A stretch of 41,448 bases of DNA from a virus. The notes under the pieces were generated by a model. The model did not search any database, was not told the DNA's origin, and saw nothing but the letters and a program-made list of their open reading frames with translations. Below, one piece after another: positions 21,814-27,028 of this stretch. The stretch's first letter is position 1, and each line of letters opens with the position of its first letter. The translations under genes and the position numbers were made by a program. The stretch spans positions 1 to 41,448 of the IMG/VR virus record IMGVR_UViG_3300045120_000235; one strand, given 5' to 3'.

Positions 21814-22346
21814 GCTTCACCCGGGAACTTTCCGTCGACCATTTCAGCGAGGTCGGATCGGCCAGGGCACATGCTCAAGTCGACGCCCTTGATCGCGCAG
21901 TGCCAGTTATAGAGCGCGGCGGCCGTCGAAATGCAGTGGTGCAGCGCCTTCTCGTTCGGCGCCGGTGGGAGCTCTTCGAAGCGACCGTCGAAGAACTGAG
22001 CCGCCGGGCGTACCCAGATCTTGCCGTCGTCCTCGCCGCGATAGACGACTACTCGTGTTCCACGATTGTTCTCGTCTTCGCCTTGAGCGATCACTTCGTA
22101 GGTGGTGCCGCGCTTCACGTGCCGATATCGCGGCAGCACGTCGGCATTGGCGGCGTGCAGTGCCTTACCGGCGAGGTAAGCGACCAACCAGAACCAGTCT
22201 GCCGGGCGTTTCGCGCGATCGTGTGCGGTTCCCCACCGTTCGACCTGGTGCACGGCTTCAACATGCGTGCCGCGCAGGAACGCATCGATCTCCGGCGAGT
22301 TGATCAATTGCTTGAGTCGGTCAGCTTCGATCTGTTGCTGGTTCAT
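21810..22346 (-). CDS. DUF1653-like domain phage protein
   Basis: This 178-residue protein has an N-terminal helical part with VERWGTAHDRAKRPADWFWLVAYLAGKAL. A middle beta domain (YRHVKRGTTYEVIAQG ... VVYRGEDDGKIWVRPAAQFFDGRF) matches the DUF1653 pattern. The fusion is common in phages and its role is unknown. It overlaps the ParB-like stop by four bases. Confidence 0.7.
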   Translation of the reverse strand: MNQQQIEADRLKQLINSPEIDAFLRGTHVEAVHQVERWGTAHDRAKRPADWFWLVAYLAGKALHAANADVLPRYRHVKRGTTYEVIAQGEDENNRGTRVVVYRGEDDGKIWVRPAAQFFDGRFEELPPAPNEKALHHCISTAAALYNWHCAIKGVDLSMCPGRSDLAEMVDGKFPGEA

Positions 22347-24022
22347 TTCTTCACCGCCGCTTTTTTCATAGCCTTCTTCGCGGCCTTTTTCGGGGCCGGC
22401 TTTGGCGGCGCTGGCGCGCGCAGCAGCTGTGGTATCCAGTTCGCTGCAGCGAGCAGCGGATAAGCAGCAGCAGCGAGGGGTTTGCCCGTGAGCTTGTCCA
22501 GTGGTTTCGCCTTATCGGCGCCGCAGGCTTCGGTCACCGCTGTGACGATGTATGGCTTGGCTTGCTCGCTGAGCCATTGTTGCGAAAGCTGCCAGTGCTC
22601 CGCGAAAGTGACGCCGACAACTTTGGCGAACGCATGCACGTCCGGCTCCTGGGTGTCGTCAGCCAGGATCAGTTCCGCGGCCATGATGGCCAGAAGCTTA
22701 TCGACCAAGTGGTTGTTTTCCGACTTGATCAGCCAAGCAAGGATGCTGCCGTGTTGCTTGACGCCGGCGTCGATCTTTTTGGCCCACTCGGCGAGCTCCT
22801 GGATGCCCTTCGGATCCGTCGCCTTGATGGCTTGCGCAATCGTCGACGGCGCGTAGGGCATCGCCTCCAGCACGATCAGCGTCGCCGCCGGCTCGCTCCA
22901 CTTTCCGGTGAAAAACTGCGCCGCCATCGCCGCAGCCAGGCACGTGCGGGCCATGTAGCCGTCCTCGCGCAACTCGCGGCGCAAGATCGCCGTGCGCACG
23001 CCGTAGAGCTTGTCATTGGTCTCGCGTGTTCCGTCACCCTTGGGCTTGTTGGCGCCGGCCTTTTTCTTGCTCGCCGGCGCCTTCTCGCCGGGCTTGACCA
23101 TGCCTTTGTGCACGTCGATGTTGCCGTTGTGGCTGATCGTCACGATCACGCCGAGCTTGGGATCGGGTTTGCCGTCGCCGCCTTGCTTGTATTTCGCCTT
23201 CTCGCTGTAGTCGAACGACAGCCGGGCCTCCGCCCAGCCCCAACCTTTCGCGCGTTGCTTCGCCGCTTCGGCCTCGAGCTTGGCCAGCGCGAGCTTGTTC
23301 ACCAATTTGGAATCGGGCAGAGACGCAAAATCGCTGAACAAATCCTTGCGCGTCTTGCCGCCTGCCTTCTCGTACGCGTCGACGCCGACGAAGCGGCCGA
23401 GCGTGCTATCCAGGCCGATATCCTTTTCGACCAGCGCCTGGCGCAGCTGCTGCGGGCTGCGTAGCCATAGGGCATGCTCGCCGGCTTTCCAGGCCTTCAT
23501 CTGGGCGGGGTGATCGTCGACCAGCGCCAGGGCCATCATCTGATCGAGTGTTGCCTTGCCCGCGCGATACTCGGCCAGCAGCGATGGAGCGACGTTACCC
23601 AGGCGAAACCGTTGTTCGACATGCTTCTCGCTGGTGCCGAACCGCACGGCGATCTCGGCGGAGGTAAAGCCAGACTCCTTGGCCAGCGCCCGGAATGCTT
23701 CGAATTCGTCGGCCGGGTGCATCGCCTGTCGCACGACGTTCTCCGCCAGCGAGATCTCGGCGGCTTCCGCGCTGGTGACGATCCTGCAGGCGACGGGATG
23801 ATCGTCGGCGAGCGCGCCTTCCTTGGCGAGCAGCTGCAGTGCCTGCAGTCGGCGGTTGCCAGCCACCACCTGGTACTTGCCGGCGATCTCAACGACGGAA
23901 AGGTTTTGCAACAGTCCATGCGCCTGGATCGAGCCGGCAAGGTCTTCGATGCTGGCGCCGCCCGACTTGCGGACATTGCTCGCGGACGATGTGAGTTGGG
24001 ACAGCGGAATCGACAGAGTCAT
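22343..24022 (-). CDS. ParB-like nuclease/DNA-binding domain protein
   Basis: This 559-residue protein starts MTLSIPLSQLTSSASNVRK. The ParB N-terminal domain (about 1-100) includes GLLQNLSVVEIAGKYQVVAGNRRLQAL, and the CTP-binding GNRR motif is present. A helix-turn-helix region follows at about 110-180 (TSAEIAVRFGTSEKHVEQRF). The C-terminus is a Lys/Ala/Pro-rich tail. No ParA is encoded nearby, so partition is unlikely on its own. Its ATG overlaps the reverse transcriptase stop (ATGA), so it is translated from the same transcript as the DGR. Confidence 0.85.
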   Translation of the reverse strand: MTLSIPLSQLTSSASNVRKSGGASIEDLAGSIQAHGLLQNLSVVEIAGKYQVVAGNRRLQALQLLAKEGALADDHPVACRIVTSAEAAEISLAENVVRQAMHPADEFEAFRALAKESGFTSAEIAVRFGTSEKHVEQRFRLGNVAPSLLAEYRAGKATLDQMMALALVDDHPAQMKAWKAGEHALWLRSPQQLRQALVEKDIGLDSTLGRFVGVDAYEKAGGKTRKDLFSDFASLPDSKLVNKLALAKLEAEAAKQRAKGWGWAEARLSFDYSEKAKYKQGGDGKPDPKLGVIVTISHNGNIDVHKGMVKPGEKAPASKKKAGANKPKGDGTRETNDKLYGVRTAILRRELREDGYMARTCLAAAMAAQFFTGKWSEPAATLIVLEAMPYAPSTIAQAIKATDPKGIQELAEWAKKIDAGVKQHGSILAWLIKSENNHLVDKLLAIMAAELILADDTQEPDVHAFAKVVGVTFAEHWQLSQQWLSEQAKPYIVTAVTEACGADKAKPLDKLTGKPLAAAAYPLLAAANWIPQLLRAPAPPKPAPKKAAKKAMKKAAVKK

Positions 24023-25392
24023 GATTGGATCCTCGGGAAGTGGGACGGGAGTTCGATCAGTCGACCTTCCGAACGGAGATCGAAGTTGCGACGCCGAGTG
24101 GCGGCAGCGAGCCAGGGAAAACGGCGATGGAAGTCGCGGCGCAGCTGGTAGCTGCTCGCGTGGTCGAAGTGGCCTTCGTAGCTCGCCCAGATCGCGGAGA
24201 CGTCACGCAGATCCTGCGGCGTCACCTGCAGGCCGTGTGCGGTGACGTGGCGATACGCCCACCCAGACAACGCCTGGCGCGCGTGCGACACGACACGACG
24301 CCGAACGAGCGTGTGGGAAGGGCGGACGATGTAGCCGAGGAAGTCGATGCCGTCGGTCAGCGGCTGCAGGCGGATGTCGGCTTTCAGCGACAGGTTGAGC
24401 CGGCTGGCCAGGAACGCCTCAATCTGGTGTTGCCACGCGAGCAGCTGCTCGCGATCGCGATGCACCAGGACAAAGTCGTCGACGTAGCGCAGGTAGCGTT
24501 TCGCCTTGAGCACATGTTTGACGAACTGGTCCAGTTCGTTGAGGTACACGTTGATGAAGAACTGCGATGACAGGTTGCCGATCGGAATGCCGCAGCCCGG
24601 CGGCGCGTTCTCCAGCCGCTTGTGCGGCGGCACCTGGGCGCGTTCCTCGGCGCTGGCGCGGTAGTGCACGCCCTGCTCGAGGGGCGACAGGCGAAGCAGG
24701 GCGTGGACCGCGTGCTGTATCGGCAGCGATATCCCGGCGCGTTGCATGCGTGCCTTGAGCAGGCCGTAGAGGATCTTCCGCTTGACCGAGTTGAAGCAGT
24801 TGTGGATGTCCAGCTGCAGGAAATATCCGCCGCCCTGGCCGCTGGCGACTTGCCGAACGAACGCCACCAGCTGGCGAACCGCGGCGTGGGAACCTTTGCC
24901 GCTGCGGTTGGCGTAGCTGTCGGAAATGAAGGTCGGCTCGCAGACGGCCTCGAGCGGCGGCACCACCAGGTGATGCACCACGCGGTCGGCGAAATCAGGC
25001 GCGTGGATCTCGCGTGCCTTCGGCCGCGTGGCGATGAAACAGGTGGTCGGCCGCGGTGACCAGGTGCCGGCGTTGATCTGGTCCTGGATCTCGAGCAGGT
25101 TGTCCATCCAACGCAGTTCGAACTGCAGCTGGTTGACGCTGGGGCGCTTGCCTTGCCGCGCGCGCTGGAAAGCAGAAAGGATGTCCGGAAAGCGAATGCC
25201 TTCCGGTGCCGCACCGGGATACTCACCGGGCACGCCAGCGGGCCGCACGGCGAGGACGAAGCACTCGTTGTTGCGGTTGTTGGTGTTGGCGTTGCCGTTG
25301 TTGAAATTGAGGTACCACGCGTCCGAAGACGCATCCCCCGACACTTGCGACCCGGCCGCGCATCCCGTCGTGGCGTAGCGTGGCGTCGTCAT
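24019..25392 (-). CDS. DGR reverse transcriptase (frame includes the TR)
   Basis: The open frame is 457 residues. RT motifs are KAREIHAPDFADRVVHH (125-141), catalytic LDIHNCF (Asp195), IGNLSSQ (271-277, the IGxxxSQ form typical of DGR enzymes), YVDD (303-306) and GIDFLGYIV. The ATG at 25392 overlaps the avd stop (ATGA), which would place the template repeat in the first about 55 codons. The RT fold proper starts near residue 65. A GTG at 25233 would give a 404-residue enzyme starting right at the TR end, without an evident ribosome site. The true start is unresolved. Confidence 0.94.
   Translation of the reverse strand: MTTPRYATTGCAAGSQVSGDASSDAWYLNFNNGNANTNNRNNECFVLAVRPAGVPGEYPGAAPEGIRFPDILSAFQRARQGKRPSVNQLQFELRWMDNLLEIQDQINAGTWSPRPTTCFIATRPKAREIHAPDFADRVVHHLVVPPLEAVCEPTFISDSYANRSGKGSHAAVRQLVAFVRQVASGQGGGYFLQLDIHNCFNSVKRKILYGLLKARMQRAGISLPIQHAVHALLRLSPLEQGVHYRASAEERAQVPPHKRLENAPPGCGIPIGNLSSQFFINVYLNELDQFVKHVLKAKRYLRYVDDFVLVHRDREQLLAWQHQIEAFLASRLNLSLKADIRLQPLTDGIDFLGYIVRPSHTLVRRRVVSHARQALSGWAYRHVTAHGLQVTPQDLRDVSAIWASYEGHFDHASSYQLRRDFHRRFPWLAAATRRRNFDLRSEGRLIELPSHFPRIQS
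25222..25331 (-). repeat. DGR template repeat (TR)
   Basis: These 110 bases align without gaps to both variable repeats. The sense strand carries eight AAC codons and one AAT, the usual DGR design in which adenines are mutagenised during reverse transcription. The 3' 45 bases (from GAG TGC TTC onward) are GC-rich and identical in TR and VRs. They end with a G in the TR (sense) where both VRs have C, reminiscent of the IMH/IMH* distinction. The TR lies between avd and the RT core, in frame with the RT. Confidence 0.95.
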
Positions 25393-25826
25393 GCGTTGGC
25401 CCCAGAAACTGAGGCGGCCGGGGTACTCAGTATCTGTCCACGCTGGCCATGCCGCGGTTGCGGCTGGCCATTCTGGGAACTACGGTGCAAATCCTTTTTC
25501 CAGCCGCCGGCCTGCATGCCGAGCTCTCGGCAGATCCTGGCCAGCTGTTCGAAGCGTGCCTTGCTGGTGAACGCGCGCAGCAGGGCGGCGATCTGCAGTT
25601 CGCCCTTGAGCGTGTCGATCTCGCGCACCAGGTCGTCGACCAGGTCACGGCGATATCGCGGCTCCGCGTACGCCTGGCGCGCCAGCCTCAGCACCTTCCG
25701 CACCTGGGCGCGCAGATCCTCGCCCGTCGGGTACCGGTTGAAGCGCGAAAACTGCCGAACGGCCTGCTCGATTTCTAGGAGCAGGCGCTCGGACAGCTTC
25801 ACGATCGGCGGCGCGTGGAAGGTCAT
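25389..25826 (-). CDS. avd: Avd, DGR accessory variability determinant
   Basis: This 145-residue protein is predicted almost wholly helical up to residue 110 (LLLEIEQAVRQFSRF ... DLVDDLVREIDTLKGELQIAALLRAF ... FEQLARICRELGMQAGGWKK), the four-helix-bundle Avd pattern. Avd is a basic pentamer that binds RT and the TR-containing RNA. A 34-residue Gln/Pro/Ser-rich tail follows, longer than in BPP-1 Avd. Its 3' end abuts the TR, so this stretch may be constrained as DGR RNA. It lies between the second target and the RT. Confidence 0.87.
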   Translation of the reverse strand: MTFHAPPIVKLSERLLLEIEQAVRQFSRFNRYPTGEDLRAQVRKVLRLARQAYAEPRYRRDLVDDLVREIDTLKGELQIAALLRAFTSKARFEQLARICRELGMQAGGWKKDLHRSSQNGQPQPRHGQRGQILSTPAASVSGANA

Positions 25827-25857
25827 GGTATGCGGTCGGCTTTTTTCAGAAGGTCAA

Positions 25858-26415
25858 TTACTGACCGGGCACGCCAGCGGGCCGCACGGCGAGGACGAAG
25901 CACTCGCCGCCGCGGCTGTCGGTGTCGGCGGAGCCGTAGCTGAAAAAGAGGTACCACGCGCCCGAAGACGGATTCCAGGACGCGCGCCGACGGGTCCAGT
26001 ACCAATCGTCGGTCCGGATCCAGAAGAAGAAGTTGGGATCGCACGCGGGGTTATGGCGCGAGCGATCGATGATCGGCTCGAGTTCCTTGTCGTCGCCCAT
26101 CTGCCAGCCTTTGACGCCGCAGTGCTCGAGCTCGGCGGCGGCTTGCTCGCCTTCCTCGTGCGGCCAGGTGCGATCGCCGACGTTGATCGCCGCGACGATC
26201 ATGTTGTTCTGGAGCAGGTGGATCGCGCCGACGTCGCTGTTGGGCGCATCGTCGGGCAGCGGCTCGAGCGTGTGGCTCAGCTTGATGTAGAGCCGGTCGT
26301 CCCGGCGCCGCTCCGGAAGGGCGCGGTGCACGGTGCCCTCGCCCTCGGCGATGAATTGCGTGGGGAAGTGGCCGCACGTCGGGCAGTTGCTGACGCTGAT
26401 CGTGTTCTCGTCCAT
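25858..26415 (-). CDS. DGR target protein 2, DUF1566/C-type-lectin-like
   Basis: This 185-residue protein has an N-terminal region with CPTCGHFP (11-18) and a beta-rich middle. The C-terminal DUF1566-like domain spans about 83-185 (GVKGWQMGDDKEL, WYWTRRRASW, SSGAWYLFF, ECFVLAVRP). The variable repeat encodes the last 38 residues. Ten positions (Gly152, Phe157, Ser159, Tyr160, Ser162, Asp164, Asp166, Ser167, Gly169, Gly170) differ from the TR translation. There is no signal peptide or transmembrane segment. The TAA stop is one codon past the VR core. The ligand is unknown. Confidence 0.88.
   Translation of the reverse strand: MDENTISVSNCPTCGHFPTQFIAEGEGTVHRALPERRRDDRLYIKLSHTLEPLPDDAPNSDVGAIHLLQNNMIVAAINVGDRTWPHEEGEQAAAELEHCGVKGWQMGDDKELEPIIDRSRHNPACDPNFFFWIRTDDWYWTRRRASWNPSSGAWYLFFSYGSADTDSRGGECFVLAVRPAGVPGQ
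25861..25970 (-). repeat. DGR variable repeat VR2
   Basis: This aligns to the TR at an offset of 639 with no gaps. In the core 107 bp there are 14 substitutions and every one lies at a TR adenine. Nine AAY codons plus one GAC codon are altered. A 5-bp stem GGTCA/TGACC (25852-25866) sits over its 3' end and the stop codon. Confidence 0.95.
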
Positions 26416-26458
26416 TACGTTCTCTCAGTGGCACGGCTCGCGCCGCGGAAGGTTTTTT

Positions 26459-27028
26459 TCAAAGGGCAAACGACTGACCGGGCACGCCAGCGGGCCGCAC
26501 GGCGAGGACGAAGCACTCGTAGTTGCGGAGGTAGGTGTAGGCGTAGCCGCTGTCGAAAAGGAGGTACCACGCGACCGAAGACGGATCAGCCGCCCAGGGC
26601 GTGCGCGTCCAGTGCGAAGCGGCGTCGATATCGGGGAAGTAGTTGGTGTCAGCCGCAGGATCGTGCTTCGTCAGATCCCGGATCGCCTCGAGGTCTTCCA
26701 GGTCGGGATAGCGCCAGTCCTTGAAACCGAGCAGCGTGAGCGCAGCGCACAGCTTCTCGCCGGCGGCCCACTTCTGCCGCTTCGCGTGGATCTTCCGCGC
26801 GGTGACCCAGATATTGCGGCTGGCGACGTAGACCGCGACGTGATCGGTGCCGGCATAGTCGGCGGGCAGCGCGTTGCCGTCGGCGCCGATCTTGATGAAG
26901 CGCGCCGGCGCCGCGGTCTCGCCGCTGAACGAAAGCAGTTCGCCGGCGATCGGCGACAGGTCGGAGTCGCGCTTGATGTTGATGAAGCTCGCGCCGTTCG
27001 GCTCGATGCGGATGGAAATGTTCTGCAT
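26459..27028 (-). CDS. DGR target protein 1, DUF1566/C-type-lectin-like
   Basis: This 189-residue protein starts at ATG 27028 with AGGGG about 10 bases upstream. A longer frame to 27187 lacks a site and overlaps the neighbour. The N-terminal 80 residues are beta-rich. Residues 85-189 have the DUF1566 pattern: KWAAGEKLCAALTLLGFKDWRYPDLEDLEAI, SHWTRTPWAA, SSVAWYLLF, ECFVLAVRP. The diversified residues are Val152, Leu157, Asp159, Ser160, Tyr162, Tyr164, Tyr166, Leu167 and Tyr170. Asn169 keeps the template codon. Four tyrosines are typical of a selected binding face. No export signal is seen. Confidence 0.88.
   Translation of the reverse strand: MQNISIRIEPNGASFINIKRDSDLSPIAGELLSFSGETAAPARFIKIGADGNALPADYAGTDHVAVYVASRNIWVTARKIHAKRQKWAAGEKLCAALTLLGFKDWRYPDLEDLEAIRDLTKHDPAADTNYFPDIDAASHWTRTPWAADPSSVAWYLLFDSGYAYTYLRNYECFVLAVRPAGVPGQSFAL
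26474..26583 (-). repeat. DGR variable repeat VR1
   Basis: This aligns to the TR at an offset of 1252 with no gaps. In the core 107 bp there are 11 substitutions, all at TR adenines. The invariant 3' segment is identical to TR and VR2 apart from the terminal G/C difference. The coding frame continues five codons beyond it. Confidence 0.95.

Follow-up and report, generated by a model that had tools for sequence, protein, structure and literature searches.

A DGR template repeat read in frame within the reverse transcriptase gene of a viral cassette, with codon selection ahead of the repeat and a covarying RNA fold around it

We saw that, in a diversity-generating retroelement (DGR) cassette of viral origin, the template repeat (TR) is situated entirely within the open reading frame of the reverse transcriptase (RT), where it is read in the frame of the VRs. 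The best explanation of the cassette as a whole, to which we assign a probability of about 0.8, is a DGR that keeps its entire template RNA inside a translated mRNA, with a conserved RNA fold and a working cycle in which the RNA would act as message and as template. At the level of sequence, the analysis establishes the reading frame, the geometry of the avd-RT coupling, codon selection, a ribosome-site motif and base-pair covariation.

The window, i.e. the whole stretch of DNA that was analysed, has a length of 41,448 bases and makes up a virus record in IMG/VR; its minus strand carries two lectin targets, avd and RT:

24019..25392, minus strand: RT ORF, 457 aa (ATG at 25392, stop at 24021-24019)
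24022..25200, minus strand: RT core by AlphaFold and Foldseek, confident from about residue 68
25389..25826, minus strand: avd-like accessory protein, 145 aa (TGA at 25391-25389; PHROG Avd, 2e-11)
25389..25392, minus strand: ATGA, four-base overlap of the avd stop (TGA) and the RT start (ATG), kept in relatives
25858..26415, minus strand: target gene 1, Lcl_C/DUF1566 C-type lectin (VR1 at 25860-25970)
26459..27028, minus strand: target gene 2, Lcl_C/DUF1566 C-type lectin (VR2 at 26473-26583)

The RT matched Pfam RVT_1 (8.5e-16) and the PHROG reverse transcriptase family (1e-93); its translation contains the motifs of a DGR-type RT, IGNLSSQ ([ILV]GxxxSQ) and YVDD (YxDD), and the closest RT folds found in PDB by Foldseek were the BPP-1 DGR RT entries, with 8ub7 as the best. 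Matches of the avd product to NCBIfam Avd and Pfam bAvd were both under the curated cut-offs; we counted the protein as Avd-like, and a search of PDB by sequence gave no match to it. Both VRs make up the C-terminus of Lcl_C proteins, as in DGR targets. One VR differs from the TR at 11 adenines and no other base, the second at 14 adenines and one other base; we counted this pattern as the substitution at template adenines typical for a DGR.

Two side features of the cassette can be mentioned. A second ATGA overlap (24019-24022) links the RT stop codon to the beginning of a ParB-like ORF (22343-24022, minus strand), and the three genes avd, RT and ParB-like seem to form a single coupled run. Also, a shared stretch resembling TYTGAAAAAAxCCxxCCGC is present 3′ of both VRs (about 25840-25860 and 26450-26472, minus strand); it is possibly part of a homing signal.

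The elements of the RT reading frame that concern the TR are:

25221..25331, minus strand: TR, in the VR frame and within the RT ORF, by TR/VR comparison
25332..25389, minus strand: pre-TR codons of RT, MTTPRYATTGCAAGSQVSGDA, not template, under codon-level selection
25221..25226, minus strand: IMH*-like GTGAGT at the TR 3′ end; the VRs have GTCAGT, with the G/C difference at 25224

As proposed in an earlier sequence-only reading of this DNA, the RT frame begins with an ATG that shares bases with the avd stop (ATGA, 25392-25389) and crosses the TR in the VR frame without a stop codon; the TR is read as SSDAWYLNFNNGNANTNNRNNECFVLAVRPAGVPGE, and the frame runs on into the RT core (about 25200 onward). 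The same reading placed a fallback start, GTG at 25233, 'exactly past' the TR. This was an error of position: TR/VR identity continues to 25225 and the GTxAGT, and GTG 25233 is a Val codon inside the TR; we rejected it as a start located directly after the TR. At the end of the homology, GTGAGT in the TR faced GTCAGT in the VR in 121 of 122 TR/VR pairs, the difference that separates IMH* from IMH. In the window and most relatives, the RT reads GAG TNT where the targets read CAG, usually followed by a stop (VR2 of the window extends a few codons beyond CAG before its stop). The TR is separated from the RT core by only about 24 nt, about eight codons, and this stretch of the window contains no ATG, GTG or TTG. 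As assignment of the VR frame by the longest open frame gave wrong results for some GC-rich loci, aligned peptides were used instead.

Relatives were taken from viral contigs (80) and from genomes (80). Loci with both avd and RT and with RT core identity of at least 56% made up a comparison set of 88, the window included; the relatives are Xanthomonadaceae-type prophages, with Arenimonas, Lysobacter, Stenotrophomonas, Xanthomonas, Pseudoxanthomonas and Dokdonella as the closest named genomes. Stops or frameshifts in homologues between the avd stop and the RT core had been named as what would speak against the translation of the TR. We looked for them and found that the phase was kept in 86 of 88 loci, with 22 distinct lengths ranging from 134 to 218 nt, and that ATGA was kept in 87 of 88 (the exception, L065, has TGATG). 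Of the two loci out of phase, L024 has Ns in its sequence and is near-identical to L018, which is intact; in L025 the stretch from the first RT codons to the TR (1144-1344) carries a single frameshift, which is either a sign of a dead RT or a sequencing error. With at least 21 length changes and a one-in-three chance for each to keep the phase, the lower-bound P of such conservation arising by chance is about 1e-10. L096 and L099, both sister lineages, have a stop between TR and RT.

All 75 non-redundant loci were open from the ATG to the core in the RT frame, with 0 and 1 open in the other two frames. Openness alone is weak evidence, because a frame is open over this length in about 0.16 of shuffled GC-rich sequences of such composition; as proof of translation it was rejected, since BPP-1 and Magia are also open and lack codon selection. 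In several more distant DGRs (L101, L103, L106, L108, L111 and others), the RT frame opens within the TR itself; this is another mode of TR/RT overlap.

The segment between the ATG and the TR is not template, thus it provides a clean test of codon selection. For its 19 codons pN/pS was 0.33 in the RT frame versus 1.21 and 1.68 in the shifted frames; for the segment after the TR the values were 0.21 versus 1.7 and 1.5, and for the RT core 0.29; pairwise values of this kind are not mutually independent. The same kind of test revealed no frame signal in the spacer of BPP-1 relatives (0.77/0.92/0.80) or in the pre-TR segment of Magia relatives (0.87/0.88/0.83). Judging by these codon comparisons, the pre-TR segment evolves as protein.

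A ribosome site is conserved upstream of the RT start, at a suitable distance from it:

25400..25403, minus strand: Shine-Dalgarno GGGG (G[AG]GG, -11 to -8 of the RT ATG), by column counts

Position -11 was G in 72 of 74 loci, -10 was G or A in 72 of 74, and both -9 and -8 were G in all 74; the full G[AG]GG was present in 71 of 75 non-redundant loci. The Shine-Dalgarno sequence is thus GAGG or GGGG, with the variable position taking both bases able to pair with U.

One could argue that the true start of RT translation is an internal GTG close to where the TR ends (25248 or 25233), the openness upstream being a result of GC-rich sequence and the VR frame. Open frames are indeed common at this composition (the 0.16 per sequence given above), the RT of BPP-1 is open back through its TR with no sign of translation there, and GTG at these TR positions is retained by many relatives. 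These GTGs, however, are TR codons set by the template; none of the in-frame GTGs of RT (25344, 25248 and 25233) has a Shine-Dalgarno sequence; three loci (L054, L060 and L087) have no alternative ATG, GTG or TTG upstream of the core; finally, neither codon selection before the TR nor in-phase length changes would be expected of an untranslated leader. We consider the internal start highly improbable. Use of the upstream ATG, as the earlier reading had it, gains support from the pre-TR codons, from the G[AG]GG site and from the three loci with no other start.

The same stretch carries an RNA fold. A consensus fold derived from an alignment of 30 loci has five helices, P1-P5:

25429..25434, minus strand: P1 5′ strand, avd 3′ coding end, pairs with 25218-25223
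25218..25223, minus strand: P1 3′ strand, RT codons just past the TR, by covariation
25417..25423, minus strand: P2 5′ strand, in avd, pairs with 25336-25342
25336..25342, minus strand: P2 3′ strand, RT codons 17-19, by covariation
25399..25415, minus strand: P3 hairpin (25415-25412 with 25402-25399), RT Shine-Dalgarno in its 3′ arm
25349..25390, minus strand: P4/P5 stem, starting with the last base of the start codon and covering RT codons 1-15, in the consensus fold

Helix P1 encloses the TR, and one of its pairs was found as CG (10), AU (8), UA (6) and UG (5); all seven pairs of P2 covary; P3 was present in most individual folds too. Pairing was observed in 97.6% of cells versus 86.5% in shuffled alignments and changes on both sides of a pair numbered 72 versus 16 in shuffles and 5-14 with partners slid (slid structures paired in 22-46%); these figures are to be read with the fold and the pair counts coming from the same alignment and with shuffles that ignore relatedness. 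Single-sequence MFE folds did not exceed shuffled GC-rich sequence in stability, and P1 was absent from the MFE fold of a long window RNA; as the individual folds are unexceptional, the fold rests on covariation. A search for a helix 3′ of the TR revealed nothing with comparable covariation, and Rfam gave no match.

The TGAGT sequence is invariant on both P1 strands (25429-25434 with 25218-25226, minus strand); it reaches beyond the Watson-Crick pairs and takes in the universal G/C difference between TR and VR. This extension is maybe a non-canonical G-A motif. The TGAGT/TGAGT pair of P1, sought in outgroups as well, was found only in the window clade.

With such a fold in place, the stretch between the ATG and the TR might be kept solely as folded DGR RNA, its translation being incidental; beside the covarying fold itself, the very few synonymous changes seen in this stretch among close relatives would fit. 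As the pre-TR segment folds, we repeated the codon test at unpaired bases only: pN/pS was 0.32 versus 1.39 and 2.01 in the shifted frames, and a disjoint set of 26 pairs yielded 0.38 versus 1.32 and 1.53. At paired sites the value was 0.49; the frame signal was stronger where bases are unpaired, which speaks against selection on RNA alone. Moreover, regions flanking the TR in BPP-1 and Magia have no frame signal, and folding does not need indels between the avd stop and the RT core to come in multiples of three. A purely RNA-level role is thus very unlikely, if marginally less so than the internal GTG start.

The protein encoded by the leader and the TR is another matter. AlphaFold assigned pLDDT of about 33 to residues 1-62 and mostly >80 to the rest; according to this model the N-terminal tail of RT (about 56 residues, TR-coded in part) is probably disordered. 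The tail could still be a functional part of the protein, e.g. an Asn-rich arm binding template RNA or Avd, and this would account for a TR kept in the VR frame in two clades. Purifying selection on the leader peptide agrees with this suggestion, as does the VR-frame TR of the window and VP58.5 clades, with two origins (see below). On the other hand, the VR already fixes the TR codons, and the tail is predicted to be disordered. Furthermore, in L019 (4811-4982) two compensating shifts around the TR place it in another frame with the RT still open from ATG to core; the exact TR-coded residues thus seem dispensable, if the contig is correct. Finally, the variable base of TNT, the RT codon after GAG, is the covarying base of P1, thus the residue (Tyr, Phe or Cys) follows the RNA pair. 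We find a functional tail unlikely, if far from negligible; the TR-coded residues may well have no role at the protein level.

The RT tree comprised 148 rows. The trait, the translated TR, was present throughout the window clade (43 rows, support 100) with the exception of L025, and the VP58.5 clade (seven rows, support 100) had it as well; some BPP and MAG rows were assigned the trait by an automatic label, too, without backing from the codon test. Between the two clades is a branch of length 0.57 with support of 99, and clades with an untranslated TR are placed close to each of them; as this branch separates the two, the trait had at least two origins. Common descent of the window clade and the VHML/ACA-type elements in one RT clade was not observed.

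The category of TR/RT overlap, as well as TR translation for a VHML-like phage, are prior knowledge. Schillinger 2012 defined a 'group 3' with TRs overlapping RT ORF ends (PMC3521204), a layout label from annotation. In the accessible text of a 2023 paper (PMC10612066), the TR of ACA1, a Pseudoalteromonas phage with a VHML-type DGR, is said to be translated as an N-terminal RT extension and called uncommon, a statement that comes there without selection or RNA analysis. ACA1 resembles the window in having a four-base avd/RT overlap (in the annotation avd ends at 2261 and RT starts at 2258). Vibrio phage VP58.5 gp20 has the same layout as ACA1, and its clade passes the codon test: in frame, pN/pS was 0.18 for the TR and, for the segment after the TR, 0.38 versus 1.24/1.14. 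The window clade shares the hallmarks of the VHML/ACA type, the ATGA overlap of avd and RT and a TR whose RT frame is the VR frame; the VHML/VP58.5 type differs in its distant RT clade and in its RNA fold. Its TR comes a few codons after the ATG and is followed by about 43 translated codons; in the VP58.5 clade TR and core are about 130 nt apart. The VP58.5 helix around the TR has its 5′ arm over the Shine-Dalgarno region, and this arm stops immediately upstream of the RT ATG. A literature search, mostly outside subscription journals, returned no account that tests selection, covers the window clade or describes the RNA fold.

BPP-1, a Bordetella phage (RNP structures 8ub7-8ubf), is like the window in its avd-TR-RT order and RT fold, in an avd 3′ end that pairs with sequence on the 3′ side of the TR (in BPP-1, with the 3′ spacer), as well as in A-specific mutagenesis and a lectin target (known for the window from its sequence). 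Its RT frame is open through the TR, with no RT-frame signal in TR and spacer; brt has no clear ribosome site (PMC12875486). In the window, by contrast, the structured part precedes the TR on its 5′ side, and translation of RT passes through it; the BPP-1-type combination of an untranslated TR and a structured TR-RT spacer was not found in the window clade. Burkholderia phage Magia also resembles the window in an RT frame that is open through the TR from an upstream ATG, and is so annotated; it differs in that pre-TR codon selection is absent and the TR is outside the RT frame. The annotated RT start of Magia (L165 3827-5110; relatives L316-L395), which includes the TR, is probably misannotated, judging from codon comparison.

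The comparison with BPP-1 suggests how the arrangement could have come about: the clade may have lost a BPP-1-like 3′ spacer and, with no start site left between TR and RT, an upstream start was forced, making translation of the TR a by-product of compaction. The short distance from TR to core, devoid of ATG, GTG and TTG in the window, is in line with such a loss, as is the lack of a strongly covarying helix 3′ of the TR, where BPP-1 has a structured spacer (PMC12875486); the VP58.5 clade, however, shares the trait yet retains its 130 nt. We see this scenario as evenly balanced; it is compatible with the translated-TR reading, as its evolutionary cause.

In the translated-TR DGR, as sequence comparison shows it, translation of RT begins at the ATG overlapping the avd stop and proceeds through a short leader and the TR in the VR frame to the core, and the RNA from the last roughly 45 nt of avd to just past the TR folds as P1-P5, a conserved element that would hide the RT ribosome site. 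The following working cycle can be proposed: ribosomes ending avd would open P1-P3, restart on ATGA and make RT through the TR. Coupling of avd and RT and hiding of the ribosome site are what the sequence suggests. In the absence of ribosomes, the RNA would refold, RT-Avd would bind, presumably at the 5′ element, and copy the TR with errors at A; the error-bearing copy would then home into the two lectin VRs. One RNA would thus alternate between RT message and RT template.

One could speculate further, and here we are distinctly more tentative, that the arrangement is an autoregulatory switch: the template-competent fold would hide both the RT ribosome site and the start codon, only translation of avd would open it, and each transcript would be either message or template. 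Newly made RT-Avd may capture its own RNA through a recognition element 5′ of the TR, rather than 3′ as in BPP-1, and such a switch would have arisen twice.

DGR templates are usually viewed as noncoding RNA, and the earlier statement that the TR is noncoding in most DGRs agrees with Roux 2021, where TRs were intergenic in most cases (PMC8144416). Here template, structured RNA, avd 3′ end and RT start share one stretch, with selection at each level. Annotations of DGR RT starts need a test of codon selection; translation of the TR is supported for the window clade and for VP58.5, and probably not for Magia. With such a cassette, the balance between making the enzyme and copying the template in a DGR becomes testable.
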